Part shown: positions 1 through 13,396 of the stretch, one piece after another | How the letters are laid out: every line of letters begins with the position of its first letter | Position numbering within the stretch: position 1 is the first letter of the stretch | Virus record (IMG/VR): IMGVR_UViG_3300020183_000358 | Coordinates: 1-28,680 of that record | Direction: 5' to 3' (one strand) | DNA from: a virus | Length of the DNA: 28,680 nucleotides | Translations under genes and position numbers: made by a program | Notes under the pieces: model-generated | Databases searched by the model: none | The model's input: only the letters and a program-made list of their open reading frames with translations | Told to the model about the DNA's origin: nothing

Positions 1-1270
1 ATCCTGAACCATAAGGTGCAGCTTTACCCGCTTGTGGGTCTGATGCTTCTTTCATTTTACGTAAGCGTTCTGTTTTTTCTTTAGATGCCTCTTTTTTAGC
101 AGTAATATATTCAAGTCCTTTTTTTAAACGAGATTTTACTTTAGGATCTTTTGCTTTAGCATAAGCTGCTCTAACACGTTGGTGAATCAAATTAATAATT
201 TGAGATTTACGAGCGTGTTTTTTTGATTTAAACGATGTTTTAGATAACGTATCTTTTATATCTTGAGCAGTTTTAAATTTAATGCTAACTGTATCTTTGG
301 GATTTTCATCTGTGTATAAACGACGACCTGATCCTTTAGGTTTTTTGCCTGTGCCTGTTTTAGGATCTACTTCGTTTAATATGTCTATTAATTTAATTGA
401 TTCTTTTAATTTATCAGTTTTAAATTGAATTAAGTCTTCTTTGTCTAATACTTTAGTTTTAATTTTGTCTAGTCCTAAATTTAAAGCTTTTTCTAATCTA
501 TGCGTTCCATCTAGCATAGCAAATATTTTACCATTTTCATTTTGAACAGCAATAATAGGATAAGATAAATCAGCTTTCATTACTCTTTCTTTAGTTTTAG
601 ATGGATCACTATCTTGTCTTCCACTAAAGTTGTATTTTATATCTTTAGGATCTATTTCTTTTACAGGTGTATTTTTTGCTAAATCAATAACATCACTTAC
701 TTTAAATTTAATTTTAAAATCACTACCATCTTTAAATTTTTCATCAGTATCCCACACGCCTGCTGTCTTATCAATAGATTCATTTAAATCAGGTTTAAAA
801 CCTTTTTTTTTAAATCCATCATGAAACCATTGTGGTAAATTATTAAACTTAGTTTTAATAGCTGTTTTACCATTTTCAAACCAATCAGGATATAATGTAT
901 AATAACCTCCTATTTTTTTATATTCTGAAGGTATTTGGTTTTCAGGTGTTATTTTTAGTGGTTCAGATATTCCTGGGAATTGGTTTGCTGTAAAGTCAAC
1001 ACCATATCCATCTATAATAGTAAATATATGTGAATCACCCTCTTTACTTTTGCCAGGAAATTTTTTAATATCTTCAGGAGGAGCTAATAATAAAGCATTA
1101 GGTTCAAATCCTTTATTTTTTTTAAGCCAATTTATAAATTCAAAAGTAGAACGTTTACAGTCATGATTAGAATTATAACTATCAGAATTCATAAATTCTT
1201 TAGCTATACTAACAATTTCTTGCTGTTTATCATTTAAAACCTCTTTTAATATTTTAATTAAAGAAATCAT
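1..1270 (-). CDS. ParB-like domain phage protein, 3' end cut by window edge
   Basis: The frame is open from an ATG at 1270 to the left edge, giving at least 423 residues with no stop. The ATG overlaps the TGA of the preceding gene by 4 bases (ATGA), which fixes the start. Residues 1-11 (MISLIKILKEV) form the hydrophobic N-terminal tag seen on several proteins here. Residues about 228-275 look like a ParB/sulfiredoxin-type fold: KADLSYPIIAVQ followed by the box DGTHRLEKALNLG (254-266), where DGxHR is typical of ParB N-terminal domains. Residues 291-300 (SIKLIDILNE) repeat the tag-like pattern. They precede a basic Lys/Arg-rich region (about 305-410, starting KKPKGSGRRLYTDEN) that I recognise only as a conserved phage module of unknown role. 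ParB-like domains can be DNA-binding, CTPase or nuclease; none of these activities can be assigned from sequence. The real C-terminus lies outside the window. Confidence 0.85.
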   Translation of the reverse strand, partial: MISLIKILKEVLNDKQQEIVSIAKEFMNSDSYNSNHDCKRSTFEFINWLKKNKGFEPNALLLAPPEDIKKFPGKSKEGDSHIFTIIDGYGVDFTANQFPGISEPLKITPENQIPSEYKKIGGYYTLYPDWFENGKTAIKTKFNNLPQWFHDGFKKKGFKPDLNESIDKTAGVWDTDEKFKDGSDFKIKFKVSDVIDLAKNTPVKEIDPKDIKYNFSGRQDSDPSKTKERVMKADLSYPIIAVQNENGKIFAMLDGTHRLEKALNLGLDKIKTKVLDKEDLIQFKTDKLKESIKLIDILNEVDPKTGTGKKPKGSGRRLYTDENPKDTVSIKFKTAQDIKDTLSKTSFKSKKHARKSQIINLIHQRVRAAYAKAKDPKVKSRLKKGLEYITAKKEASKEKTERLRKMKEASDPQAGKAAPYGSG

Positions 1271-1677
1271 TTTGTTTTACCCCATTTTTTACCTTTACCT
1301 GGGTCTTTGCATTTTGCAGGTGTAGGGCGACATGAAGGATATTTTGAGCGGGTTTCACCCTTTTCTCTACCACAAGCTTTATAGCCTGTTATTTTACCAT
1401 CTTTTCTAATAGGTGCATTACAATCAACCCATCCACCTTTTTTACCAGGTGCTCCTTTACGTTTGAACCAAGTGCGAAGTGTTTCTTTTGCTTTTTCTCG
1501 AATTAATTCTTCTTTAATACCTTTCCAAATTTTACCTTTACGGCATCTAACTACAGCACCGGATTTATAAGCCGATGGTTTGTCAAATTTACGGTCAGCA
1601 ATACGTAAACATCTGTCACGTTTGCTTTTTTGTTCTTCAAGAACTTCGTTAATAAGTTTCTGTAGTCTATCTTCCAT
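1267..1677 (-). CDS. Small basic cysteine-containing phage protein
   Basis: 136 residues, strongly basic, function unknown. I chose the ATG at 1677 because the upstream gene's TGA shares its A (TGATG). An in-frame TTG at 1683 would add only two residues. Residues 1-12 (MEDRLQKLINEV) are a tag-like amphipathic helix ending in INE. The C-terminal half has a conserved-looking core: WFKRKGAPGKKGGWVDCN, then ACGREKGETRSKYPSC and a last Cys before a Lys/Gly tail. The spaced cysteines (CN, ACG, PSC, AKC) could bind a metal, but no standard zinc-finger spacing is clear. Similar basic GGW-containing proteins are known to me from other T4-like environmental phages as domains of unknown function. The charge suggests nucleic-acid contact, possibly inside the capsid; this is inference. 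Confidence 0.8.
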   Translation of the reverse strand: MEDRLQKLINEVLEEQKSKRDRCLRIADRKFDKPSAYKSGAVVRCRKGKIWKGIKEELIREKAKETLRTWFKRKGAPGKKGGWVDCNAPIRKDGKITGYKACGREKGETRSKYPSCRPTPAKCKDPGKGKKWGKTK

Positions 1678-2354
1678 CACCAAAATCCTGAAAATGAGCT
1701 TTTTAAACCTAATAAAGATGCGTATCTTGGGAGTCTACATGACCAGTATGACGCCTTTGTTCTATCTTTTTTATTTTTACAATCGTGACGTGCAGCAAAT
1801 GCTCTACGTGCTTTAGGATCGTTTATTTTAGCAGACATTCCTACTTGACCGAAAGATACTTTTTTAACTCCACCTCCAGGCTTTCTAACATAAACGTAGA
1901 ATTTTTTAGATCCGCCACGTTTTGGTTTTCCAATTGGTGGATTTTTCTTTTTACCTTCAGCTTCCTCAAGTTCTTCTTCCTCCAACATAGGTAATCCTAA
2001 AGGTACTCTTTGATTTTCATACATTCCATAGTTACCTAAATCAGTTTCCTCTAGAATTTCTTTATCATCATCATTTACATGAATGATTTCACGTAAATAT
2101 AAAGCACGAGCTTCTGCCCATAAATTAAGAAAAGCTTCCGAACCATATCGGAACGTGTTTTCGGTAAGTGGGAGTTGATTTACAACGTGATAACGCAAGT
2201 TTTCCGATAATATTTCCTTAGGTGCTATACTTTCGTTTAAAATAACACCAGCATTACCTACGTTTTCACAAGTATTACAACCACAACTACATTTTTCTTC
2301 TGTAACGTGGTGGTATACTTCTTTAATTAGTTGTTTTAGACGTGTCTTATCCAT
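1677..2354 (-). CDS. Putative internal/core virion protein with C-terminal ARHxC...YWSCRLPRY module
   Basis: 225 residues. It starts MDKTRLKQLIKEV, a tag-like helix with an IKE site, followed by a cysteine cluster CSCGCNTC (22-29) that could bind metal. The middle (about 40-135) is helical and acidic and ends in LEEEELEEAEG. A basic C-terminal module (about 140-225) reads KKFYVYVRKPGGGVKKVSFG, then AARHDC, YWSCRLPRYA and a final aromatic FW. I recognise this module from uncharacterised proteins of marine and other T4-like phages; its function is not known to me. The gene follows its upstream neighbour after an 11-base gap that contains a TATTTATA element, and overlaps the next gene by one base. 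LEE followed by A at 129-132 is a possible prohead-protease site separating the acidic part from the basic module. Confidence 0.82.
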   Translation of the reverse strand: MDKTRLKQLIKEVYHHVTEEKCSCGCNTCENVGNAGVILNESIAPKEILSENLRYHVVNQLPLTENTFRYGSEAFLNLWAEARALYLREIIHVNDDDKEILEETDLGNYGMYENQRVPLGLPMLEEEELEEAEGKKKNPPIGKPKRGGSKKFYVYVRKPGGGVKKVSFGQVGMSAKINDPKARRAFAARHDCKNKKDRTKASYWSCRLPRYASLLGLKSSFSGFW

Positions 2355-2357
2355 GTT

Positions 2358-2365
2358 TATAAATA
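2358..2365 (-). promoter_or_regulatory. TATTTATA element upstream of the 2354 start
   Basis: The minus strand reads AATATTTATAAAC ending 3 bases before the ATG, filling the short gap after the previous stop. The same element precedes the starts at 25232, 22615 and 28242. A 3-base distance is too short for an ordinary promoter of this gene, so a translation-initiation or RNA-level role is also possible. Confidence 0.4.
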
Positions 2366-3883
2366 TTAAGAGGCAGGTTGTATTTTCTGTATTTCAAGGG
2401 TTCCTTGAGTATTACCATTATTTCTAGCATTAATAGTAACTGAATAGGGTTTACCTCCCTTTTCAATGGTAAAATCTATTTTTAAACCTCCAAAGGTTGA
2501 TGAATCTTGAATTTCAATTGGATCATAATCACCGTCAACATTATAAAGTACAATATTTTGTCCTCTAGGAAATTCATCTACTTTACCAGGTTCACCACTT
2601 TTTTGTCCTGTTACTTTAAAAAATGTAGGGTTAATTCCTGAAAGAGATAATGCGAATCCTGCTAGGGCTACAATAGCATCATCAACTTGATCGTTAGGGA
2701 ATTGTCTAAATAAAAATTCAATAGATTTTAAAGCAGCATATTTGCCACGTAAGAATTTAACATCCGATTTAAGATTTCCAGAGTCTAATTTATATTGAAT
2801 ATTTGGGTTTCCTTGAATATATGATGAAATTTTCTTTCTTAATTCTTGTATACCATTGATATACTGTTGTTCATCAAAATCAATTTCATCTGAAGTTAAA
2901 TTGTAGTCGTCTTTAACTTTAGTGTATTTGTTAAGGAGTGCTTTTGCTTTACCTCCTTGAGCTTCTTGTTGTTTTAAAGAAACAGCTGTAAGGGGTTTTG
3001 AATTATCTCCCCAGGAATCATTAAACATATCATTTAATAATTCTATATTATCTGCATTTTCAATACCTTCAACAGGACCTAATTGAACATATAAATCACC
3101 AGGACACCACTTGTCTGCAGGAATACCAGTTAAAGATTGAGCTTTGTTTCGAATAACATTAAATACTCCTGTTCGTATAAGTTTTTGTCCAGGATAAGCC
3201 TCTTTAATAGCTAAAGCGGATGATAATGGTTGATTAATAAAATCGATATATTGTTTTTTAGGTTCTCCTGAAATAGCTTGAAGATAGGAGGCTACTTTTT
3301 TAGATGTTTCAGGACTTTCTCCGGAAATACCTTTATTAGAAATTTCTATAAGTTGAGATATTCTATTTTGATAATTTTCAGCATCAAATGGTGTTTCAAT
3401 ATTAGAAGAATAAAATAAAGAAACTAAAGCTTCTTTAACATCAGTATCACTTGATGTTTCTTCAGATGCACCTTTTACAATTAATCTATATCGTTTCCCA
3501 TCAAAATCAACTTGAGCACTTCCTAAACTTGATCCAGTAGCTAATTTTTTAAAATTTGAAATTGAATCACCTTTATCAGCTAATTGCTTGATAGCATCAT
3601 AAACATCAAGTCGCATTTGATCAGCTTGTTTTCCTCTTCCAGGAATATTTGAAAATATAAGTTTTAAAGTATCTTTTCCAGATGCTTCTATATCTCCATA
3701 TTCATCAAATAAACCAGATTGTTTTAGAGCATTAACTAGATCTTGATTTTCTAAAATCAAATTAATACCTAGTTTTTTAAATTCATTTTCTAAAATTAAA
3801 ATATCCTGCTCATTTTTCATGTCAGGATATCCTTTTGGAAATTTATATGCTATACTATATAAGAATTTTTCTAAAACGTCCAT
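2366..3883 (-). CDS. Conserved phage protein of unknown function, possible nuclease-like core
   Basis: 505 residues; start ATG at 3883 shares its A with the upstream TAA. No signal peptide or membrane segment. The N-terminal third is helical. Residues 254-305 contain IPADKWCPGDLYVQL, a conserved-looking LNDMFND (283-289) and LTAVSLKQQEAQGGKAK (298-314). This order (KWxPxD, then an xSLK strand followed by Ala/Gly-rich residues) is one I associate with phage and giant-virus proteins that may have a PD-(D/E)XK-like fold, but I cannot verify this. The C-terminal 110 residues are beta-rich (FGGLKIDFTIEKGGKPYSVTINAR). The neighbours are probable head/core proteins, so a virion component is a fair guess. 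I do not recognise a specific family. Confidence 0.8.
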   Translation of the reverse strand: MDVLEKFLYSIAYKFPKGYPDMKNEQDILILENEFKKLGINLILENQDLVNALKQSGLFDEYGDIEASGKDTLKLIFSNIPGRGKQADQMRLDVYDAIKQLADKGDSISNFKKLATGSSLGSAQVDFDGKRYRLIVKGASEETSSDTDVKEALVSLFYSSNIETPFDAENYQNRISQLIEISNKGISGESPETSKKVASYLQAISGEPKKQYIDFINQPLSSALAIKEAYPGQKLIRTGVFNVIRNKAQSLTGIPADKWCPGDLYVQLGPVEGIENADNIELLNDMFNDSWGDNSKPLTAVSLKQQEAQGGKAKALLNKYTKVKDDYNLTSDEIDFDEQQYINGIQELRKKISSYIQGNPNIQYKLDSGNLKSDVKFLRGKYAALKSIEFLFRQFPNDQVDDAIVALAGFALSLSGINPTFFKVTGQKSGEPGKVDEFPRGQNIVLYNVDGDYDPIEIQDSSTFGGLKIDFTIEKGGKPYSVTINARNNGNTQGTLEIQKIQPAS

Positions 3884-4362
3884 TATGCTTCAGGTGTTTC
3901 TTCTGGTGTTTCTGCTGGTGGGGTTTCTGCTGGTGCTTCAGCTCCTGGGAGTTCTGTTCCTAGATCAGCTGCACCACCTTCAGCTGCTCCTTCTTCAGCT
4001 TTAGCTCCATAGCGTAAAATATTTGCTATTGATTGAGCAGCTCTTTCTTCTTCTGGTAAATTAAGTAGGTAATACTTTTTACCTTCAATTTGTGCAATCC
4101 AACTACGTTTACCATAGATTAAATAAAATAATTGACCATTTTGTAAATTAATACGAAATGTAGTGGGACGTGGTGCAACCCAATCAATTGACTCTAGAAA
4201 ATTATCATATTCTAAAGTAAGTAAATCAACAATAACTTTCTTAAGTTCAGGAAACTTAGTTAATTCATCATACTCAATAGCCTCTTCAGGAGTAATTGTA
4301 GTAGCTGAGTAAACTTGTTTAGTTAAGTTTCTAATTCTATCAATTAATTGATCACGTGTCAT
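3883..4362 (-). CDS. Conserved phage protein with Ala/Pro/Glu-rich tail
   Basis: 159 residues, coupled at both ends by one-base stop/start overlaps. Residues 1-125 look folded: an N-terminal helix (MTRDQLIDRIRNLTKQV), then a beta-rich segment FRINLQNGQLFYLIYGKRSW and QIEGKKYYLLNLPEEE. From about 124 to the end the sequence is low-complexity and acidic, with repeated PAET/PEET units, and is probably disordered. There are no catalytic motifs. The upstream and downstream partners are conserved phage proteins of the putative core cluster, so a structural or assembly role is likely. I cannot name a family. Confidence 0.8.
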   Translation of the reverse strand: MTRDQLIDRIRNLTKQVYSATTITPEEAIEYDELTKFPELKKVIVDLLTLEYDNFLESIDWVAPRPTTFRINLQNGQLFYLIYGKRSWIAQIEGKKYYLLNLPEEERAAQSIANILRYGAKAEEGAAEGGAADLGTELPGAEAPAETPPAETPEETPEA

Positions 4363-5135
4363 TATTTTTCTTTAAGTTTAGCTAAAATAGCCTTTTTAAT
4401 TTCTTCTTCCATTGCCACTGATGTAGAAATAGGGCCTGCTTTTTTATCAGGCATACCTTGAGCTTTTAAAGCATCAAATACTTTACCACGTTTTTTAATT
4501 TGTTTTTTTGACATCTCGTCAATTACATCTTCTTGAGCAGCAACATCAACCATAGCATCGATTTGAGGTTCTTTAATTTCGAAATCAAGGTAATGTTTTG
4601 CTGAAACTAAGCAAGATTTGGCTTGAATAATTTTTGCTTGCCACCAATGAGGAAAATCAACTTCTTGTTCACCTTCATATTGATCAACCATTTTATAAAG
4701 TTCCATAGCGTATTTTCCAATACGATATAGATCTGCTTTAAGCATATGAGGTTCATCATCTGTATGGCCTAGATCAAGGTCTTCATCTACTTTACCTTTA
4801 GCTTTTTTAATAGCAATATCACGAGCCATTAAATAGTCTTTAGAATCAATTTTTCCATCTGGTTTTCCTTTAGGGCCTGTTAAATCTTTACCTTTTTTTT
4901 CAGATAATGGCTTAGATAAAGCCGCTTGAATCATTTCTTTTAATCTAGTATTTTCCATAGGGGTATCAGTTGTTTCTTCTTTAGCTTTTTTCTTTTTTTG
5001 GTTACTAACGGCGATACTATAAGCATATAGTTCACCATCAGCACCCTTTTCATCATAAAGTTTTTCTAAACGACTACCAACGATAGACTTAAAGTTCTGC
5101 ATTATTTCTTGTGAATCTTGAGAATTAAAGTCCAT
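4362..5135 (-). CDS. Conserved T4-like phage protein with EF-hand/dockerin-like loop
   Basis: 257 residues. Residues 1-50 are helical with a KKKKAK stretch. An internal MENTRLKEMIQAALSKPLSE (60-79) repeats the tag-like helix and could alternatively be a secondary start. DLTGPKGKPDGKIDSKDYL (about 85-103) resembles a dockerin or EF-hand calcium loop with poor ligand spacing. Residues about 128-200 (PHMLKADLYRIGKYAMELYK, then DFPHWWQAKII and SAKHYLDFEIK) form a helical domain I have seen in many environmental T4-like phages without known function. The start at 5135 lies 14 bases after the stop of the histone-like gene. The end shares one base with the next start. A prohead-core or internal virion role is inferred from context. 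Confidence 0.82.
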   Translation of the reverse strand: MDFNSQDSQEIMQNFKSIVGSRLEKLYDEKGADGELYAYSIAVSNQKKKKAKEETTDTPMENTRLKEMIQAALSKPLSEKKGKDLTGPKGKPDGKIDSKDYLMARDIAIKKAKGKVDEDLDLGHTDDEPHMLKADLYRIGKYAMELYKMVDQYEGEQEVDFPHWWQAKIIQAKSCLVSAKHYLDFEIKEPQIDAMVDVAAQEDVIDEMSKKQIKKRGKVFDALKAQGMPDKKAGPISTSVAMEEEIKKAILAKLKEK

Positions 5136-5149
5136 TATAGTATGTTTAA

Positions 5150-5320
5150 TTAAGCTTTGTCTTCTGCAGTTGAAGTCTTTTTAAAATCAGCTGCAAGTTT
5201 TTTAATGCTATTAGCTGCACTACGTGCACGTCCACGAGCTGCTTTTGATGTTTTAGCATGCTCAGTTTCCATAATAGCAACTTGTTCTTTAATTGTGTCT
5301 AAAATTTCAGTTGTGTTCAT
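5150..5320 (-). CDS. Histone H1/Hc1-like DNA-binding protein
   Basis: A 56-codon gene beginning MNTTEILDTIKEQV, ending TAEDKA and a TAA stop. The core (residues 23-50) contains SKAARGRARSAANSIKKL and DFKKTS. It follows the pattern KAA-x2-RAR-x-A, then KL, then F-(K/R)-K-x-S, that I know from the Hc1-type histone H1 proteins (Pfam Histone_HNS/Hc1-like group) found in Bacteroidota. These proteins are short helical DNA-compacting factors. An N-terminal acidic/hydrophobic helix precedes the basic half, as in that family. The gene sits between a very acidic protein (5350-5907) and a conserved core-like protein (4362-5135). I infer that it binds phage DNA or helps condense it during packaging, or modulates host chromatin. 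It has no Shine-Dalgarno sequence; the leader is A/T-only (AATAAAATTT before ATG). Confidence 0.8.
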   Translation of the reverse strand: MNTTEILDTIKEQVAIMETEHAKTSKAARGRARSAANSIKKLAADFKKTSTAEDKA

Positions 5321-5349
5321 AAATTTTATTAATTATAGATTATTAAATA

Positions 5350-5907
5350 TTAGTCTTGTCCACCCCCAATATATTCGCTAACGAAAAATTTAAGTGTGTT
5401 TCCAACTTGTGTTTCAAGTTTTTCATTGTTCATTCCTTTTGCAATCTGGAATGCTTTCATTAAGTGGTCCATAAGATCAGCTTCTGTACCTTTCATATCG
5501 GCTGCTAAATCTTCAATACCACCAGTTGCTTCAGGAGCATCTTCAATAGGAGCTTCTTCAGCAGGCATTTCTTCTTCAGTATCAGTTACTTCAACGTCTT
5601 CTACTTCTTCATCTTTTTTCTTTGCTTCTTCAAGTTCAGCATCTTCACCTTCGTAAACAGGATCAGTTTCATCTACAACTGTTTCTTCAGCTAATTCAGC
5701 AACAATCATTTCTTTGATTTTTTCTTTTAATGAAGCTTTTTTATCATTTTTCATATCATCTTCTAAATCGCGAATATGAGCAGCATCATCTTTTTCAGCG
5801 TCTTTATAATAATCCTTTTCATTTTCATTTAATGATTTAATTGAAGGATTTAAATTCTCAAGAGCTTTACTTTCCTTTAAGAATTTTTTTAAGTCAAAAT
5901 TGTCCAT
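5350..5907 (-). CDS. Very acidic phage protein, candidate prohead core/scaffold
   Basis: 185 residues. It begins MDNFDLKKFLKES, a tag-like helix with an LKE site. A second helix of the same kind, SLKEKIKEMIVAELAEE, lies at about 58-74. Residues 75-135 are dominated by Glu and Asp (EEVEDVEVTDTEEEMPAEEA) and are probably disordered. The last 50 residues form an amphipathic helical domain (LMDHLMKAFQIAKGMNNEKL) ending GGGQD. Acidic, helical, protease-site-rich proteins are typical of T4-like prohead cores (gp22, gp67 and gp68 in T4), but there is no direct sequence match I can claim. The start at 5907 shares its A with the previous TAA. The following gene is the basic histone-like protein, an acidic/basic pairing that may matter. 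Confidence 0.8.
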   Translation of the reverse strand: MDNFDLKKFLKESKALENLNPSIKSLNENEKDYYKDAEKDDAAHIRDLEDDMKNDKKASLKEKIKEMIVAELAEETVVDETDPVYEGEDAELEEAKKKDEEVEDVEVTDTEEEMPAEEAPIEDAPEATGGIEDLAADMKGTEADLMDHLMKAFQIAKGMNNEKLETQVGNTLKFFVSEYIGGGQD

Positions 5908-6533
5908 TATTTTTTCTTATTATTTGTGTATAAATATTCGGAGAGGAGTGTTCCTATAACTCCTGTCTTCTGTCTAATAAAAGACCATTCGTCTTTTACT
6001 AAATGATGTGGTTCTTTATATGATATACCTAATACACCAATTAAATGATTATCTAAACTGTATAAACCAAGCATACAACACGATCTAGTTCCAAATTGAA
6101 GTGTTAAATGTTCTAAACCGTATGTATCTTCTGCTGATGTTACATCATCAATTGCCAATTCTGTATCCTTGTATATTTTGGCTAATACTCTAGGGAATAA
6201 AGATACTGGGATATTTTGGAAGGTATGTTGAATGTTTTGGGTGTTTGGGGATGTTTTTTCGTGAAAAAGGGAAAACTTTTGAATAGATTTACCTGTGGGA
6301 TAAAAATGACCTCCATTATGGAATTGAGCCAACCATATACGATCACAATTGAGTTCATCCATCATTATATCTAATTGATCTTCTATTAGATTAGAAGTTT
6401 CAAGTGCCTCACGTACAGGAGTTTTTTCATCTTTTTTCTCCATTTTGAGTTTTACCCAATTTACTATAATTGGTCCAACTATAGCAGTAATTACCGCTAC
6501 AATTATAGTTTCAATCATTATAAGAGTATCCAT
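5907..6533 (-). CDS. Membrane-anchored GAF-domain protein
   Basis: 208 residues. Residues 3-27 (IETIIVAVITAIVGPIIVNW) form one strongly hydrophobic segment followed by a basic patch (KLKMEKK), predicting an N-terminal membrane anchor with the rest cytoplasmic. Residues about 45-200 look like a GAF domain: NLIEDQLDIMMDELNCDRIW, FHNGGHFYPTGK (71-82), a central Cys pair RSCCMLGLY and LIGVLGISY near the end. GAF domains bind small molecules such as cyclic nucleotides or act as redox sensors; no ligand can be assigned here. It is coupled by one-base overlaps to both neighbours. A holin or signalling role is possible but not shown. I recall similar TM-GAF proteins in environmental T4-like phages. 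Confidence 0.8.
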   Translation of the reverse strand: MDTLIMIETIIVAVITAIVGPIIVNWVKLKMEKKDEKTPVREALETSNLIEDQLDIMMDELNCDRIWLAQFHNGGHFYPTGKSIQKFSLFHEKTSPNTQNIQHTFQNIPVSLFPRVLAKIYKDTELAIDDVTSAEDTYGLEHLTLQFGTRSCCMLGLYSLDNHLIGVLGISYKEPHHLVKDEWSFIRQKTGVIGTLLSEYLYTNNKKK

Positions 6534-7105
6534 TATTTTTTAAGTGAATTTAAGTATTTGATTACATCGTCTAAAGACTGTTGGGCTTTTTCTTTGTCTA
6601 TACCACCAACCCATTTTTGTACTTCACCATTTTCAGAAACGAAACCATTAGCTGTATCAGCTAAAATATTTTCAAACCATTTTTTATATTCTTGTATTTG
6701 TTGATCAATTTCAGCATTAAATGTTTGGTTAGTGTAATCTGTCCAAGTACCAGCAAGTTTCATTTGTGTCTCGGTTTTAGCTCTACAATCAACACATTCA
6801 CCATATGCTTTAAAATAAAATGGATCTAACTGTTTATCCATTATCTGTTTACATTTTGGACAAAACAATGGAACTGCTACTTTTTTAAGTTTATCTAGTT
6901 TAGTAACATTTTCTTTAATACCATCTCGGATAGTCCAAGTTTTACCTCTTTCTTCCCAAACATCACCTTCTTTATGTGATTGTTGTTCTTCACCATTATA
7001 ACCAATTCCCATAGTAGTACGATCACCCGATTTACCTTTTACAAGGTTACGTAAACGTTCTACATCACGTTTGTTAAACTCTTTTTTTAAAATCGAATCT
7101 GCCAT
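6533..7105 (-). CDS. Zinc-ribbon conserved phage protein
   Basis: 190 residues. It has two CxxC knuckles, FCPKC (C82, C85) and ECVDC (C104, C107), 18 residues apart, forming a typical four-Cys zinc ribbon. The N-terminal part (MADSILKKEFNKRDVERLRN, then GDVWEERGKTWTIRDGIKEN) looks like a conserved phage-specific domain. The C-terminal helix region (IDQQIQEYKKWFENILADT) is probably alpha-helical. There are no enzymatic motifs. I recognise the overall pattern from other environmental myophages but know of no function; nucleic-acid or protein contact via the ribbon is a guess. It is joined to both neighbours by TAATG overlaps, so it is probably translated with the HAD enzyme and the GAF protein. 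Confidence 0.82.
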   Translation of the reverse strand: MADSILKKEFNKRDVERLRNLVKGKSGDRTTMGIGYNGEEQQSHKEGDVWEERGKTWTIRDGIKENVTKLDKLKKVAVPLFCPKCKQIMDKQLDPFYFKAYGECVDCRAKTETQMKLAGTWTDYTNQTFNAEIDQQIQEYKKWFENILADTANGFVSENGEVQKWVGGIDKEKAQQSLDDVIKYLNSLKK

Positions 7106-7680
7106 TATAACTTGTATTTTTCTTTAAGAATTTCTAATGTTTTTAGAGCTGAAGTATGAAGGATAGCTTTACCGCCACTTGCTTTCCAAGCATCAGTATT
7201 TTTTTCCATATCATCTATTAATATGTTTTTTGGACCAGCATATATAGCTTTTTGAGGAGCAGGTACAAATATTTCTTCACCTACACTACTAAGATTCCTT
7301 GAAATCCATTCTTTTTTTCCTTGAATAGCTTGATTTTTTTCAGGACTTAATTGTTCATCATATGGAAGACTAAAATCTACTGCTGGGGCTGAAAGGATAT
7401 TTGGAGTGTATTGTTGGATATGGGACCAAAGTTCTTTTCCTCCGGGTTGCCATTTTAGATTTGCCCAAAAATCTTTTTCTTTGATATTTTTTTCTTCAAG
7501 TTTTTCCCTAAATAATTCCCAAAAATAAGATTTTCCAACAGCATTAGCTTCTTGAGTTGACATATCTGTTAAATCAGCATATCCTTGGTCAAAATCACAA
7601 AGTACACCATCCATATCACAATAAATGGAATAAGGTCTAATTGCTTCGTATAAATCTAATAATGTAGGTGTTTTTTTCAT
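7105..7680 (-). CDS. HAD-superfamily 5'(3')-deoxyribonucleotidase-like phosphatase
   Basis: 191 residues. HAD motif I is CDMDGVLCDF with the nucleophile D22 and general acid D24. Motif II is probably ILSAP (95-99). A motif III lysine is likely in the KKEWISRNL or KAIYAG region. Motif IV is ILIDDMEKN with D156 and D157. The order, size and DMDGVLxDF start fit the NT5C-type 5'-nucleotidase group that removes phosphate from (deoxy)nucleoside monophosphates. Related T4-like phage proteins exist. The first 13 residues (MKKTPTLLDLYEA) precede the HAD fold and look like the N-terminal tag, with LYE before A. The substrate is inferred from family only. The downstream gene starts on the last base of this stop codon. 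Confidence 0.88.
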   Translation of the reverse strand: MKKTPTLLDLYEAIRPYSIYCDMDGVLCDFDQGYADLTDMSTQEANAVGKSYFWELFREKLEEKNIKEKDFWANLKWQPGGKELWSHIQQYTPNILSAPAVDFSLPYDEQLSPEKNQAIQGKKEWISRNLSSVGEEIFVPAPQKAIYAGPKNILIDDMEKNTDAWKASGGKAILHTSALKTLEILKEKYKL

Positions 7681-7698
7681 ATTAAAATTTAGGCAAAT

Positions 7699-9168
7699 TT
7701 ACAACATATCTTTTACTCGTTCAAGTAATTCTTCATTAAAATCAATTCCATGTCGAAATTTAAATTGTTTTTCTAACTTTTCTGTTGAAAATCCTTTATC
7801 TTTTAATAATAAATAAGCTCCTAAATCAGCATCCATTTCATCATCTGCTGAGTATGGGCCTGTATGTCCTAAAAGTAAATGGGCTATTTCATGTGCTTCA
7901 ACAATTTTCATGTCTTTAAAATCTAAATTAGAATTTACAAAAACCTCACCATCTAAAATAATTGTTTTATTTTCAGGATAGTAAAAACCATACCCATATT
8001 CATCAAATAAAGGTTCTAAATTTGGATAATTTTTATTATTTTTAAAAACAACTAATATATTTGTATCCGGTTTAAAATTGCTAGGATATGAAATTAAGTC
8101 ATCTTCTTTTTCTTCTTTTAAAACACCTTCAGTTAATGTATCTGTCCACTCTCTAAAAGTCATGGTTCCTTTCAGATTAGCTTCTTCTTCTAATTTATAT
8201 AGATAATCATCTTCATTAATATCAGTAGTAGATATATTATTTAAACGATTATCACAATTTTGCATATGGTGAATCATTTCATGCGCGTAAGAACGCATAA
8301 CATCTTTTGGATGACGATTCATTGTATAAAGTACTATAACGCGGTTATTCGGGTCGTAATACGCGGTTTTACCAAAGAAATTTTGTGCATTTTCAGCGTC
8401 ATCATCTACAAATTTTACTTTAGGTAAAGGACGTATATTCATACCTTTATCCAACATATATTCTGTAAGTGATTTAATCATTGGAGGGTAGCTAAATTTA
8501 CTTGGTTCAGCATACATTTCTTCAATTCCCCCAGGTGTATTTAATTTTTTACCAGTTGCAGCATCTATATTATAACCACAAGTACCTTCTTCTACAGGGG
8601 TTTTAGTTAAGATAGACCAAACTTTATCCTTTTCCTCGTCTGTAAGTTCAGTTGGAAGATATTGTTGAAATCTTTCTTTTTCTCCACCGATTAAAGCAGC
8701 ACGTGTGTTTGTACCACTAATACGATCTTCACCTTCTTCTGATTGAATTACAAGGGGTTTAAAATTATCGTATTTACCTTTTAAGCTATCAAAGCGTTTT
8801 AGATCACCTAAATCCATTTCATTACGAATACCTACTACAGGGTAGTACATATTTTGTGGGTTGTTTTTGATAATAGAAGCAACATCTGAAATAGGAGATG
8901 ATTTTTCTGCTATTTGAATTTCAACATTAGATGAAAGATATTTTTTGTAGAGATTCCAGATTTCTAAACTTTCCTCTTTAGAGACACCATCTCGATTTTT
9001 ATGTCCAATCAAGACGATTACTTTATCTATATTTGAATTTTTAGCTACTTCATCAACCAATGCAAAGTGACCAGCTGTAGGTGGTTTAAAACCACCAGGC
9101 ACTAGAGCAATGTTTTGTCCTTCTGTCTCTAGAATGGGTTGTATGAGTGATTTAACGAACGAATTCAT
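7699..9168 (-). CDS. Nucleotidyltransferase fused to two HExxH metallopeptidase domains
   Basis: 489 residues with three parts. Residues 18-185 form a cytidylyltransferase-like (HxGH-type) nucleotidyltransferase: ALVPGGFKPPTAGHFALV with T-x-G-H at 31-34, and RISGTNTRAAL (149-159) matching the ISSTxxR box of NMNAT/PPAT-type enzymes. Residues about 225-340 carry a first zincin site, AHEMIHHMQN (H296, E297, H300), with KLEEEAN (325-331) as a candidate third ligand. Residues 360-489 carry a second, ImmA/IrrE-like site: EAHEIAHLLLGH (H426, E427, H430) followed by DDEMDADLGAYLLL (442-455). The N-terminus (MNSFVKSLIQPILETEG) is tag-like. LTE before G at 345-348 lies exactly between the two protease domains and could be a processing site. 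The start overlaps the kinase gene by 17 bases. Substrates are unknown. An NAD-related reaction for the first domain is possible but not demonstrated. Confidence 0.85.
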   Translation of the reverse strand: MNSFVKSLIQPILETEGQNIALVPGGFKPPTAGHFALVDEVAKNSNIDKVIVLIGHKNRDGVSKEESLEIWNLYKKYLSSNVEIQIAEKSSPISDVASIIKNNPQNMYYPVVGIRNEMDLGDLKRFDSLKGKYDNFKPLVIQSEEGEDRISGTNTRAALIGGEKERFQQYLPTELTDEEKDKVWSILTKTPVEEGTCGYNIDAATGKKLNTPGGIEEMYAEPSKFSYPPMIKSLTEYMLDKGMNIRPLPKVKFVDDDAENAQNFFGKTAYYDPNNRVIVLYTMNRHPKDVMRSYAHEMIHHMQNCDNRLNNISTTDINEDDYLYKLEEEANLKGTMTFREWTDTLTEGVLKEEKEDDLISYPSNFKPDTNILVVFKNNKNYPNLEPLFDEYGYGFYYPENKTIILDGEVFVNSNLDFKDMKIVEAHEIAHLLLGHTGPYSADDEMDADLGAYLLLKDKGFSTEKLEKQFKFRHGIDFNEELLERVKDML

Positions 9169-9901
9169 TTACTTTACTTTTTGCTGTCTCTATAGAATCA
9201 AATTCAGGTTCTTTTTGGAGTAGAGATTGTATTTGTTGATTAACGGCTTCTTTTTCTGCTTTTGATTTTGCTAATTCCTCAGGTGATTTTTCTTTACCTT
9301 GTGGATTAGGGAACATTTTTTGGATTTCCTCTGAATTGAATGATTTATTAGCATCAGAAGGATCATTGTTGATTACAACTATGTTATTTTCAAATAATTG
9401 TCTGTATGATTCAATATTGTTCATTACACTAGCCCAGCTTTTTAATACTGCACTTGTAGGTAAACTTCTACCACGTTGTGCATTACGAATTAACGAGGTC
9501 ATCGGTGAAACATAAATTAAAATCATAAAAACATCATATCCCATGTTTTCTAGTTCCTCTTTTTTCTTTGACACTACTTTATATGAAGCACCAGTTCCAT
9601 CTATTACAACATTGTTTAGATTAGTTGTAGCTAGCAACTCTTTTTCTTTAGTTGTTGCTCTAGCTTTTCCCATCATTTTAGCTGCAATGGAAAGTTCTTC
9701 AGGGGACATTGAAGCAAAATCAGATTTACCTAATTCTTTTTGTAAAAGTGCTTCAAAATCATCATCTACATTAATTATAGTGAAATCTTTAAGACCAAGT
9801 TGGTTAAGTGTATATGATTTTCCTGCACCTGCAGGACCTGCCATCAAAATAGCTTTAGGTTGGGATTGAACCTCCTTTAACAATTGAACCAGACTTATCA
9901 T
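9152..9901 (-). CDS. Zeta-toxin/AAA_33-like P-loop kinase
   Basis: 249 residues. Walker A is GPAGAGKSY at 22-30, just after the tag-like N-terminus MISLVQLLKEV. NVDDDFEALL (about 44-53) corresponds to the acidic substrate-side motif of zeta toxins and polynucleotide-kinase-like P-loop proteins. VVIDGTGASY is the second core strand (DGTG is typical of AAA_33/zeta proteins). IYVSPMTSLIRNAQRGRSLP carries the arginine-rich lid region. The last 45 residues (KSPEELAKSKAEKEAVNQQ) are a charged helix outside the kinase core. The reaction is probably ATP-dependent phosphorylation of a small molecule, nucleic-acid end or protein; the family does not tell which. No antitoxin (epsilon-like) gene is adjacent, so a plasmid-style toxin-antitoxin role is unlikely. 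Confidence 0.85.
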   Translation of the reverse strand: MISLVQLLKEVQSQPKAILMAGPAGAGKSYTLNQLGLKDFTIINVDDDFEALLQKELGKSDFASMSPEELSIAAKMMGKARATTKEKELLATTNLNNVVIDGTGASYKVVSKKKEELENMGYDVFMILIYVSPMTSLIRNAQRGRSLPTSAVLKSWASVMNNIESYRQLFENNIVVINNDPSDANKSFNSEEIQKMFPNPQGKEKSPEELAKSKAEKEAVNQQIQSLLQKEPEFDSIETAKSKVNEFVR

Positions 9902-9912
9902 ACTTATACGTA

Positions 9913-10686
9913 TTACAATTCTCGTTTAGCCGTTGTTCTAAATTCAGTAAATACTGGAGAATGGGTTGGGTTTTCTAGATCAAACAGGCGTTTTACTGTT
10001 TTAAAGATGTCAATATTTTCTTCAAATGAACGAGTTGATTCAACTACTTCCCATCCTTTTCCTTGCATTTTATCTTTTTTAGCACCTCGTTTAGATGATT
10101 TCAACCATAAAATACCGTAACGGTCTATTTTCTTTCCAAAACATTCTTCATAACATTGACCATAAACTGCTGTTTGTAATTCATATGTTGTTTGAAGTTG
10201 GTTAGATGTTTTTAAATCTAATAACCACAGTTCACCATTAATTTCAACAATTAAATCGCATGTGCCTGCTACTTTAAGTTCATCTGAGAATAGATGTACT
10301 TCTGTTTCAATTAAATTTGGTTTAAACGTTTCCCAAAATTCAACAAAACGTAAAAACATTTGCCAAACATCAGGATTACATTGTGGGCTACCATTACTAT
10401 CTAAAAAATTTAATTCTTCACCATTTAAATATGCTTCACACAGTTCGTGAGTTTGGGTACCTTCTTCAGCTGCTTTTTTAACAATATAGTCAGCAGAGAA
10501 ACCTACTTGCTTTAACCAATTTTCAAAAAATTTACCTTTTGGATAGTATCCCAAAACATACGTTACCGAAGGATAATATTTCCCATTACGACGATAGTAA
10601 CGGGAATCAGGTAAAGTGATTTGAGTTGCATCATCAGAAATCTCAAGGATGCGGTCATAGGATTTTTTAATGTTCCTTTTTTTCAT
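9913..10686 (-). CDS. PD-(D/E)XK nuclease, Cas4/RecB-like
   Basis: 257 residues. The motif order is that of RecB/Cas4-family exonucleases: GTQTHELCEAYL (H80), an acidic residue in LIETEVHLF (E127/E129), AGTCDLIVE with D144, LLDLKTS with D157 and K159 (the D-x-K pair), and the QxxxY motif QTAVY (171-175). I see no cysteine cluster of the iron-sulfur Cas4 type. The start at 10686 overlaps the primase stop by 4 bases (ATGA), so the two are likely co-translated. A role in phage replication, recombination or host DNA degradation is probable. The N-terminus lacks the tag-like helix found on the following three genes, which fits an enzyme acting in the infected cell and not packaged. Confidence 0.88.
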   Translation of the reverse strand: MKKRNIKKSYDRILEISDDATQITLPDSRYYRRNGKYYPSVTYVLGYYPKGKFFENWLKQVGFSADYIVKKAAEEGTQTHELCEAYLNGEELNFLDSNGSPQCNPDVWQMFLRFVEFWETFKPNLIETEVHLFSDELKVAGTCDLIVEINGELWLLDLKTSNQLQTTYELQTAVYGQCYEECFGKKIDRYGILWLKSSKRGAKKDKMQGKGWEVVESTRSFEENIDIFKTVKRLFDLENPTHSPVFTEFRTTAKREL

Positions 10687-11618
10687 ATTATAGATAATTT
10701 TTTCTCCATTAACTTATATTGTGTTAAAGGGGAAACGGTTTGTACTAATTTGGTAAATTCTTCAAATCCCATTTCACTAGGATCTTTTCCTTTAAGTTCT
10801 ACCAAATACACTTCCTTACCAATGTCCAAAAGCTGTTCACAAAAACCAAGGGCTTTTGAAATAGCATCGTTGTCTAATGCAATATATATTTTTTGTACTT
10901 TGGATTCTACCAACTTTTTCATTAAAGATGGTTGGATATTTTTGCCTAAAAGTGGAATTACGTTGCGTTTGATTGCCATAGCATCAAATGGTCCTTCACA
11001 TATGATAATAGGCAAATCCCAGTTAATAAACAATTCAAACGGTATAATATCGCGAGACGTTTCAGGGTTGCGGTATTTGGTGAATGGATTTTTCTCAAAT
11101 GATCTTGCGGTGAAATAATTTAATTTACCGGTGTTATCATATGAGGGTATAACAATCATATTAGCAAATTGACCTGAATCACAATAGCCAATATTGTATT
11201 TAAGAATATCTTGTTTAGTAGTATTTCTCTTTCTAAGATAAGCTAGAGCATGTTTTGCTATAATATCTTTGTTGTTGAGAAATGTTTTGAATTCTTTTGG
11301 TAACTCAAGTAAAGTATGTTTTACCTCTCCTATATCTTCGGTAGATACGTTTTTAACTAGTTTACTTAGTTCTTGAAAGTAAGAGGCATCAACCTGGATT
11401 TGTTTAAAGAGGCTTTTAATGGTTTTACCTTTCTTACCACAAGCCCAACAAGCCCATTTATTTATTCCGTCTTTGTTTTCGGTAAAATTAACTTCAAGTT
11501 TTGGTTTGTGGTGATGGCAAAATGGACAAGTATATGCTTGATTTCCTCTAGCAGTACGTTTGCCAGGACCTAAGGCACGGTTGACCAAATTAACTAATAA
11601 CTCATTTACCATAGACAT
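10683..11618 (-). CDS. DNA primase (T4 gp61-like: zinc ribbon plus Toprim)
   Basis: 311 residues, close to T4 gp61 (about 340). The N-terminal zinc-binding domain has CPFC (C31, C34) and CWAC (C57, C60), with the beta strand LEVNF between them, as in DnaG/gp61 primases. The catalytic Toprim core has IIICEGPFDAMAI (E208) and YIALDNDAIS (D249, D251), followed by KDPSE (278-282). A linker domain (about 75-195) contains LAYLRKRNTTKQDILKYNIG, typical of the primase N-terminal part. The protein would synthesise RNA primers for lagging-strand replication with a gp41-type helicase, which is not in this window. An alternative ATG two codons in is possible. The next gene (PD-(D/E)XK nuclease) overlaps its stop. 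Confidence 0.92.
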   Translation of the reverse strand: MSMVNELLVNLVNRALGPGKRTARGNQAYTCPFCHHHKPKLEVNFTENKDGINKWACWACGKKGKTIKSLFKQIQVDASYFQELSKLVKNVSTEDIGEVKHTLLELPKEFKTFLNNKDIIAKHALAYLRKRNTTKQDILKYNIGYCDSGQFANMIVIPSYDNTGKLNYFTARSFEKNPFTKYRNPETSRDIIPFELFINWDLPIIICEGPFDAMAIKRNVIPLLGKNIQPSLMKKLVESKVQKIYIALDNDAISKALGFCEQLLDIGKEVYLVELKGKDPSEMGFEEFTKLVQTVSPLTQYKLMEKKLSII

Positions 11619-11635
11619 AAGATATGCTATCTTTT

Positions 11636-12085
11636 TTAGATATCAAAATCTTTTCGGAAAAATTTGCCTAGAATGTTGTCGTTGAAATATAAATCAGGTT
11701 CCTCTAATACTCTATAAACAAACAAAGTTTGTGTTTCATAGTATGTTAGAAGCTTTTTAGTAGGGCATATAATCAAAATTTCGCGTTTGAAATTTTCAAT
11801 TGGTTCCGTTTTTTTAAGTTCAAGTAGAGGTTTATTTGAACCCCAATATTTTTTCCAGTCTGATTCAGTTATTGCTAATTTATATGCGGGCCTGCGACCA
11901 ACTATACCTTCATATAATTCAAGATCTTTTTTGGTTAATTTTACTTTTTTGTTATGATAAAGTACTTTTTTACCAATATAGGATTTACCTGAAGGGGTAT
12001 GGGTTATCTTGTAGATGAATCCAAAGGTATTGTTTGGAAATTGAGAAAAGTCCCCAATTTCTTCTTTTTTATATAACCAATTCAT
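11636..12085 (-). CDS. SegE-like GIY-YIG endonuclease
   Basis: 149 residues. The GIY-YIG core is seen as GFIYKITHT (22-30) and KSYIGKK (34-40), followed by a conserved DWKKYWGSNK (76-85) and an ESY-type helix YYETQTLF (115-122) with the probable metal-binding Glu117. FKREILI (99-105) fits the third strand. The layout matches the SegE-type GIY-YIG domain of T4-like phages. These are free-standing homing-type or related endonucleases that cut DNA at or near their own locus. No DNA-recognition extension follows the catalytic domain, so target specificity is unclear. It sits between the tail genes and the primase with 3- and 17-base gaps. Confidence 0.88.
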   Translation of the reverse strand: MNWLYKKEEIGDFSQFPNNTFGFIYKITHTPSGKSYIGKKVLYHNKKVKLTKKDLELYEGIVGRRPAYKLAITESDWKKYWGSNKPLLELKKTEPIENFKREILIICPTKKLLTYYETQTLFVYRVLEEPDLYFNDNILGKFFRKDFDI

Positions 12086-12088
12086 AAT

Positions 12089-13396
12089 TTAAAGATCTAG
12101 GTTTACTAATATAGAAGTATCAGTAACAGCAGATGTAGGGAGAGGTTGGGCAAGTTTAGCTACAGCTAATAGATTGTAATTGTTATCATATAGTCCTACT
12201 GTAGTAACGTAGGGTGAAAAATAAGAACCTGTAGCAAAGTTATATAAAACTCCACTGTTTGAACTTCCTGAAATTAAAGTTGGGTTTTGAGAAAAATTAA
12301 ATTCATTCTCTCGCATAGTGCATTTATATTGTGTTTCGTAAATTGTAAGTGAAGATGAGAATGAGCAAGTTACATTAGAAGATGTAACAAAGTTAATTAT
12401 AGTTGAATCAACACCTTTTGTTAAAGCTGCAATTCCATGTTCATAAAATATATTTCCTATATTTGCAGGTTGAGGCAATAATTGAGAAGTAGCATTAAGT
12501 TGAAAAGCAAATCCTATGTCAAATGTATTACTACAAACATAATAAAAATAATAATCTACTCCAGTATTTAAAGTTGTTGTAAAGGAACCACTAAAAGTTG
12601 TTCCTAGAAATACAGGGCTAAATCCACTATATACTGGGGATAAACCTTCTGAAGAAGATAAATAAAAATCTACAGGTTGATCTAAACTATTTGCTGATCC
12701 AGTAATTGAAAAAGTAATACTTGCTGAGGGGAATGCATTGTTGGGAATTAAATTAATAACTCCTGTACTTGAATTATAAGAGATTCCATTAGATGAATTA
12801 ACATTCATGTTAGTCGCAATAGTAGGAGTTATTGTTGTTGCGGGGATTAATGAAGAAGAAAGAGAAAAAATAACATTTGAAGCTGAAGTGAACAATAGAT
12901 TTCCTTCTCCATCATCAGTAATTGATCCACTAGGTGAAGTCCAATAAAAAGTACCAGGTTTAATATATTCTCCAAATAAATTTGAAGGGATAGAAATCAT
13001 ACCTATAATACTATTTTGAGTAGTAGGAAAATATCTATTTGCTGGGAGAGTAGATGTTAAATAATTATAATAATTTGGGGTATAAGCAGCACCAGTTATT
13101 GTTCCATCAGTATTAAATGATGCAGTTGCTGCGGGAGAGCCATCTGGATTTAAAAGATAATTTGAATAATAAAGTTCTTTAATTGAACGATATACTAAAA
13201 TTTGATCTTGAGTATCGATTTGTCCTGTTGGATATGAACCAGATACCCATGGAAGTGTAGTAACATTACGTCCAAGATACCTATCAATTTCTACATTTGA
13301 AGCTATTAATTCATTTCCTTTAAAAGTAAATGATTTATTTACCTCAAAAGGAGATACAATAACATCAGACGTTATAAATGACTTGAATACGCTCAT
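12089..13396 (-). CDS. Tail-associated structural protein, shares C-terminal module with next gene upstream
   Basis: 435 residues, rich in Ser, Thr, Asn, Gly and aromatic residues, with SSS and TGS-type runs typical of beta-rich phage fibre or decoration proteins. No signal peptide or enzyme motif. The N-terminal 100 residues (MSVFKSFITSDVIVSPFEVN, then GRNVTTLPW) look like a conserved attachment domain. Residues about 365-435 (RENEFNFSQNP, LISGS, VTTVGLYDNNYNLLAVAK) closely match the C-terminal end of the protein encoded at 13403-14416, so the two are partial paralogues with different centres. Likely location is the tail fibre or baseplate periphery, by context and composition only. The start lies 6 bases after the previous stop. 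Confidence 0.82.
   Translation of the reverse strand: MSVFKSFITSDVIVSPFEVNKSFTFKGNELIASNVEIDRYLGRNVTTLPWVSGSYPTGQIDTQDQILVYRSIKELYYSNYLLNPDGSPAATASFNTDGTITGAAYTPNYYNYLTSTLPANRYFPTTQNSIIGMISIPSNLFGEYIKPGTFYWTSPSGSITDDGEGNLLFTSASNVIFSLSSSLIPATTITPTIATNMNVNSSNGISYNSSTGVINLIPNNAFPSASITFSITGSANSLDQPVDFYLSSSEGLSPVYSGFSPVFLGTTFSGSFTTTLNTGVDYYFYYVCSNTFDIGFAFQLNATSQLLPQPANIGNIFYEHGIAALTKGVDSTIINFVTSSNVTCSFSSSLTIYETQYKCTMRENEFNFSQNPTLISGSSNSGVLYNFATGSYFSPYVTTVGLYDNNYNLLAVAKLAQPLPTSAVTDTSILVNLDL

Follow-up and report, generated by a model that had tools for sequence, protein, structure and literature searches.

A short Hc1-type (PF07432) mini-histone gene of aquatic phages and its possible role at DNA packaging

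In chlamydial Hc1, the lysine-rich C-terminus is described as binding DNA and the N-terminus as dimerizing (PMC2848022), and the DNA-binding domain is likewise placed in the C-terminal region in PMC3469542. In phages, 'histone H1-like' proteins of the same family, PF07432, have been reported from four complete genomes of aquatic, mostly Bacteroidota-infecting jumbo phages, with the suggestion that they compact DNA for packaging (PMC12619734), so that the kind of protein considered here, a phage mini-histone, is already known. The available text of that paper does not mention a wider spread of these genes, a separate phage clade or a linkage to head genes; a search of PMC8557907 for the word 'histone' found none.

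The DNA analysed here, hereafter the window, is a single virus record of 28,680 bases. The initial annotation had pointed out in it an easily overlooked gene of 56 codons with the Hc1-type pattern KAA-x2-RAR-x-A, KL, F-K-K-x-S, and this gene is indeed found, as an open reading frame (ORF) on the minus strand that starts with ATG and reproduces the pattern letter for letter (Table 1).

Table 1. Positions of the mini-histone gene, its predicted second helix and nearby genes in the window
Feature	Position	Strand	Remarks
Hc1-type (PF07432) mini-histone gene	5150..5320	-	ATG start, 56 aa, net charge +3
Codons 26-55, predicted helix 2 with conserved basic face	5156..5245	-	AlphaFold2; coordinates from the ORF
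Acidic upstream neighbour	5350..5907	-	185 aa, net charge -32; starts MDNFDLKKFLKES; 29 bp before the mini-histone
Downstream neighbour	4362..5135	-	257 aa; residues 114-197 match residues 302-388 of immuto protein 191
Second downstream gene	3883..4362	-	159 aa; residues 34-119 match residues 705-790 of immuto protein 191
Protein encoded three genes upstream	6533..7105	-	190 aa; 38% identical to immuto 184

The sole Pfam family matched by the window protein is PF07432 (E=1.2e-4, 22.3 bits), residues 7-55 being aligned with positions 4-56 of a 57-position model which we take to represent the N-terminal half of chlamydial Hc1. The score lies 1.2 bits below the curated Pfam cut-off of 23.5 bits; hence, the Hc1 relationship is argued from homology to members above the cut-off, which is exceeded in 15 of 20 longer related records, the remaining five falling under it. 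When the window protein was combined with 43 distinct full-length relatives picked from 79 loci (alignment A1), PF07432 was matched at E<=0.01 by 42 of these 44 proteins, with a best value of 1.7e-10. A search of NCBIfam with the window protein gave no match, and a search of PHROGs gave weak matches to unnamed families alone (E 0.097 and 0.12). The profile of the phage proteins was also compared, using hhalign, with a Bacteroidota-only profile of six plasmid-record proteins (alignment A3), yielding a probability of 96% (E 3.8e-9, columns 5-55). Against the same Bacteroidota-only profile, the window protein scores 16.4 bits (unfiltered mode), a value reached by none of 4990 composition shuffles, the maximum of which was 11.7. 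Applied to the 57,053 ORFs of the collected loci, the Bacteroidota-only model recovered at E<0.01 no other ORF than mini-histones, namely, 145 of 233, a total in which the rows used for training are counted, as are contigs present in overlapping copies. By Pfam, hhalign and shuffles alike, the homology spans the whole 57-position domain. On these sequence comparisons, we consider it secure, the sub-cut-off score notwithstanding, that the window gene is homologous to the short Hc1 of the Bacteroidota type, as the initial annotation had proposed.

The gene is widespread. With the window protein as the query, 79 viral loci were found; when a divergent relative served as the query, 341 of 378 pattern-matching stretches proved to be relatives, and 80 were retained. 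Exactly one mini-histone ORF is present in each of the 158 viral loci from both scans, so the reading frame is kept in relatives, and exactly one PF07432 match was obtained in each of the 20 longer viral records. In one locus (L002, at about 5995), the frame is otherwise intact but starts with ATA, as against ATG in the other loci, which would be either a rare start or a sequencing error. Among 127 distinct coding sequences analysed, the median dN/dS is 0.20 over 53 comparisons close to the window and 0.25 over 3435 pairs with dS of 0.1-1.2; values near or above 1 appear in two of the 15 rows printed (L030 and L033), where synonymous changes are few. The mini-histone gene is under purifying selection. 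Since the 257-aa downstream neighbour, searched in the same way, finds only 6 relatives, the mini-histone appears to be far more constrained than this neighbour. The gene of the 190-aa protein served as an independent anchor for the presence or absence of the mini-histone: among 77 loci found via this gene (L183-L259, a count that leaves out L007, L033 and L048), the mini-histone is present in 51 and absent from 12, and 14 are too short. In all 12 loci that lack it, the anchor is at most 52% identical; a search of the whole records finds the mini-histone in two of them and none in the other 10, all of which are possible fragments.

Among cultured phages, nothing was found with the window protein as the query. 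A relative (L095) used as the query retrieved gene 74 of Flavobacterium phage immuto (protein QQO91992.1; 66% identity, E 1e-17) and a copy in an unannotated 635-kb phage (62% identity). Weak rows included a gene of Synechococcus phage S-SRM01 that bears the annotation 'histone H1' and an ORF of Prevotella Lak phages that is, by eye, a clear Hc1. The immuto homologue is annotated merely as hypothetical; immuto being a cultured phage, a role in the head could be tested in a laboratory phage.

The AlphaFold2 model, built with 51 rows, consists of two helices, at residues 3-22 and 26-55 (mean pLDDT 97.3, pTM 0.79), and the mini-histone is confidently predicted to be a two-helix hairpin with one basic face. 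Lysine or arginine occupies positions 26, 31, 33, 40, 41, 47, 48 and 55 in 98-100% of the 51 rows (in the window protein, K26, R31, R33, K40, K41, K47, K48 and K55). The basic residues of helix 2 lie on one side, opposite the hydrophobic side, an asymmetry that differs from shuffles at p<0.05 in 49 of the 51 rows, with p = 0.0115 for the basic moment of the window protein. The modelled hairpin would fit a face that binds DNA or an acidic partner. The net charge across 96 phage mini-histones ranges from 0 to +4. A cellular Hc1 protein of Fidelibacterota (L164), modelled from one sequence, gave the same hairpin at lower confidence (pLDDT 78.9). Of the 454 viral and 156 PDB matches returned by fold searches, none reached E<=0.001; the second viral row, at TM 0.91 and E 0.47, is named 'Histone H1', and the top PDB match, which is not significant, is the phage anti-activator Aqs1 (E 0.8). 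Sequence searches did not turn up a solved structure of the family: the best E values, 8.6 and 0.13, were too weak to be of use, and a match of a Bacteroidota copy to an ankyrin-repeat chain of solved structure (E 0.0011) was taken as chance. Processing of the T4 type at the I-M-E of residues 16-18 was considered and rejected, as the site is not kept in relatives, I/L-x-E near residue 18 being absent from L014, L066, L070 and others. When the pattern was read against the sequence, no capsid-targeting-like motif was seen in the N-terminus of the mini-histone.

The mini-histone shares its strand with the nearest upstream gene in 151 of 153 loci, and in 143 of the 153 no more than 50 bp separate the two; the nearest downstream gene is on the same strand in all 150 loci scored, so that co-transcription with the neighbours is likely. 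In the lineage of the window, the order acidic gene, mini-histone, 257-aa-like gene hardly varies. The initial annotation had assigned the gene to a head/core cluster, between a very acidic candidate core protein and a conserved core-like protein. The first neighbour is very acidic indeed (185 aa, net charge -32). Neither neighbour matches a PHROG with a function, and for the 257-aa protein, with its 6 relatives, the description 'conserved core-like' is not supported; within the window, the neighbours are thus not identified core proteins, and it is among the relatives that a tendency toward head genes becomes apparent. Twenty of the longer records (L030, L031 and L041 being among those left out) were searched for the portal (phrog_213) and the major head protein (phrog_138). 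In 17 of the 20 (17 of 18 with a usable portal), the mini-histone shares the strand of the portal and lies 4.8-21.3 kb upstream; in one record (G005), the two are at opposite contig ends, and in another (G008), the phrog_213 search gave no portal match. In the remaining record, that of L149, the mini-histone is located between the portal and the major head protein: here, the portal (2.6e-69) is followed by three genes, the head maturation protease (4.5e-51) and, 14 bp on, the mini-histone, then by a 396-aa acidic scaffold-like protein (net charge -82) and the major head protein (3.8e-76). The clusters around the mini-histone in L150 and L156 are arranged as in L149, and that in L151 likewise as far as the contig runs; as all four encode one and the same mini-histone protein, they are counted as one lineage. 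In immuto, by contrast with these head-linked copies, the gene directly follows groES-groEL at 42 kb, with the portal at 120 kb.

Several other features of this region were noted. The two genes at 3883-5135 of the window match separate parts of one 841-aa immuto protein (191), which, by sequence, is a case of gene split or fusion between relatives. Many proteins encoded around the mini-histone and the terminase (window 1-12100) start with a short amphipathic motif resembling L..(L/I)(L/I).E. In immuto (MW353176, 102.2-126 kb; L081), this motif is found in 12 of 26 proteins as compared with 10 of 180 elsewhere, the pattern having been drawn after some sequences of the immuto region had been seen; it was fixed before two further records (G002 and G005) were scored, with 7/27 vs 11/191 (p=0.0026) and 4/25 vs 7/160 (p=0.045). 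The motif resembles the capsid-targeting sequences of T4, and genes of the cluster may code for enzymes that are taken into the head. The best PHROG for the gene at 11636-12085 is labelled NAD synthetase; homing endonuclease families match as well (1.5e-10 and 3.7e-8), and the start of the protein, GFIYKITH...KSYIGKK, looks to us like that of a GIY-YIG nuclease. The NAD synthetase label, which immuto 170 bears as well, is doubtful. Beside the baseplate genes, the window holds a 1997-aa ORF (15139-21132) for which there was no PHROG match at E<=0.01.

The initial annotation had raised the question of an origin from the host. In a tree of 59 rows and 57 columns, 50 aquatic-phage rows, with immuto and two bacterial-bin contigs among them, are separated by a supported branch (96/87) from nine other rows, namely, five Bacteroidota copies, Lak-A1, S-SRM01 and two Fidelibacterota copies (L163 and L164) lying between; the data are short, many forks are weak or open, and S-SRM01 sits on a very long branch. 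A recent capture from the host was therefore rejected: the aquatic phage copies form a clade of their own apart from Bacteroidota. The Lak-A1 copy is placed among the Bacteroidota copies, which makes a separate capture there likely. The simplest reading of the tree would be an old phage lineage and at least one separate capture, in Lak.

The suggestion that the gene is a clue to a Bacteroidota host has fared better. In a tblastn search of plasmid records, all 12 matched records are from Bacteroidota, and when 28 window proteins were compared with 27 from the immuto block, 11 had a match there, in a similar gene order. These matches and the order in common with immuto, which itself has a homologue of the gene, make a Bacteroidota host likely for the window phage, if not proven. 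A genome scan with the phage alignment revealed no cellular copy, and a second scan gave four loci. One of these copies (L164) adjoins genes of DNA polymerase I and an ABC transporter and is, given these neighbours, probably chromosomal; within its phylum, Fidelibacterota, a match was obtained in only 3 of 100 genomes. Another of the four loci (L161, 1-5733) is on a contig assigned to Candidatus Pelagibacter and has a phage-type mini-histone and a gene of PHROG 7595, as at 1677-2354 of the window; this contig is probably phage DNA that was binned with Pelagibacter. On a contig of a genome drawn from Fidelibacterota (L265, 1498-1671, minus strand), a different PF07432 copy is found beside genes that, by eye, are dUTPase-like and deoxynucleotide-kinase-like; the contig looks to be from a further phage, whose Hc1 copy lies among genes of nucleotide metabolism.

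As possible functions, the initial annotation had named condensation of phage DNA in the head, protection of the incoming DNA and competition with the host histone. We tentatively suggest, granting it somewhat less than an even chance, that the protein is a phage-adapted, tail-less Hc1 hairpin that helps to neutralize or compact the phage DNA during or just before packaging. Such a hairpin would form dimers in the manner of the N-terminal part of chlamydial Hc1 and would contact the DNA through the conserved basic side of its second helix; the mini-histone would be made together with the head proteins, and some copies might stay in the head as a small internal protein. In favour of this reading are the PF07432 homology, the predicted fold with its basic face, the constraint on the gene, its linkage to head genes and the likely co-transcription. 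The basic face is conserved, and condensation of DNA is the function proposed for it; the lysine-rich tail being missing, it would not be safe to call the protein a DNA condenser from its name alone. The modest net charge and the missing tail count against an action at packaging, as do the N-terminus, with neither a capsid-targeting-like sequence nor a kept I/L-x-E site, the position of the immuto gene far from the portal, and the capacity of small helical hairpins to bind proteins, as exemplified by the non-significant top fold match. The location of the immuto gene in a groEL/DNA polymerase region, outside the head region, would better suit a nucleoid protein that acts within the cell and is not packaged, coating or bridging host or phage DNA and thereby shutting host transcription or organizing replication. 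The bacterial members on plasmid records are annotated 'histone H1', and chlamydial Hc1, when produced in E. coli, is described as compacting the nucleoid (PMC2848022) and, as reported in PMC12619734, as lowering DNA and protein synthesis. Nearly all other contexts, however, are those of late or head genes, and in one lineage the gene sits directly between the protease and a scaffold-like gene, so that we deem a purely intracellular role somewhat unlikely.

The same neighbourhood could be explained if the basic hairpin bound not DNA but the adjacent, very acidic protein of core or scaffold type, adjusting core assembly or being released upon DNA entry. The pair that flanks the mini-histone is the most acidic pair of neighbouring genes in 67 of 93 representative loci, and a different acidic protein takes this place in the protease-capsid lineage (L149); moreover, the half of Hc1 that is homologous to the hairpin is, as we take the mapping to be, the dimerizing and not the DNA-binding one (for the halves, see PMC2848022). 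However, the count is statistically weak, since most of the 93 loci represent one inherited arrangement and are not independent, and the pattern is missing from 26 of the 93, some neighbours there being just mildly acidic; we consider this role quite unlikely. That the hairpin aligns over its full length with the Bacteroidota copies also allows for mixed dimers in which it would disable or redirect the Hc1 of the host. Yet the Bacteroidota proteins, of 57-58 aa, are themselves tail-less, so that a missing tail would not make the phage protein dominant-negative, and in the tree, the phage copies show no sign of tracking host sequences; poisoning of the host histone is thus very improbable. Returning to packaging, a bolder form of the proposal would see in the gene an ancient lineage of tail-less Hc1 that became fixed in the head programme of a large group of T4-like aquatic phages as a dedicated capsid-associated mini-histone, working with the acidic core proteins in assembly and with the DNA at packaging; to this form we assign a low probability. 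The general view is that tailed phages package their DNA without histones. Should the bolder form hold, the virion DNA of these phages would be partly neutralized by protein. With a histone-family protein long retained in hundreds of phage contigs, and encoded in one lineage between the prohead protease and a scaffold-like gene, it becomes directly testable whether some tailed phages employ a nucleoid protein for packaging or inside the head.

When compared with the known systems, the mini-histone resembles the internal head proteins of T4 in being small, encoded near head genes and possibly DNA-associated. Those proteins, by definition, have a capsid-targeting N-terminus and a kept prohead-protease site, whereas the mini-histone has neither a capsid-targeting-like N-terminus nor a kept site for the protease, the specificity of which in T4 may not be that in these phages. 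The alpha3 'phage histones' are likewise phage-encoded and called histones, but, as described in PMC11390915, they combine a histone fold with a C-terminal tetramerization helix, unlike the two-helix hairpin of the window protein, which is devoid of a histone fold. Chlamydial Hc1 (HctA) belongs, by name, to the same Pfam family and has the conserved dimerizing N-terminal part; its lysine-rich DNA-binding tail is missing both from the phage protein, the ORF of which ends at residue 56, and from the Bacteroidota copies. With the moraphages, as far as they are characterized in PMC12619734, the window gene has in common the Pfam family, the kind of host, the habitat and the suggested role at packaging; the moraphage genomes are of jumbo size, up to 307 kb, as against 174 kb for the longest related records here, and their copies may fall in the same clade. 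The short Hc1, or histone H1, of Bacteroidota (plasmid-record copies from Chryseobacterium, Bacteroides, Flavobacterium, Myroides and Parabacteroides) is 57-58 aa long and aligns with the phage copies over the whole length, with K26, R31, R33, K41, K/R47, K48 and S50 in common and a similar net charge of +2 to +4. The phage copies differ in that they lack four residues before the KAA motif, have K at position 40 in place of the E or S of Bacteroidota, and form a separate clade.
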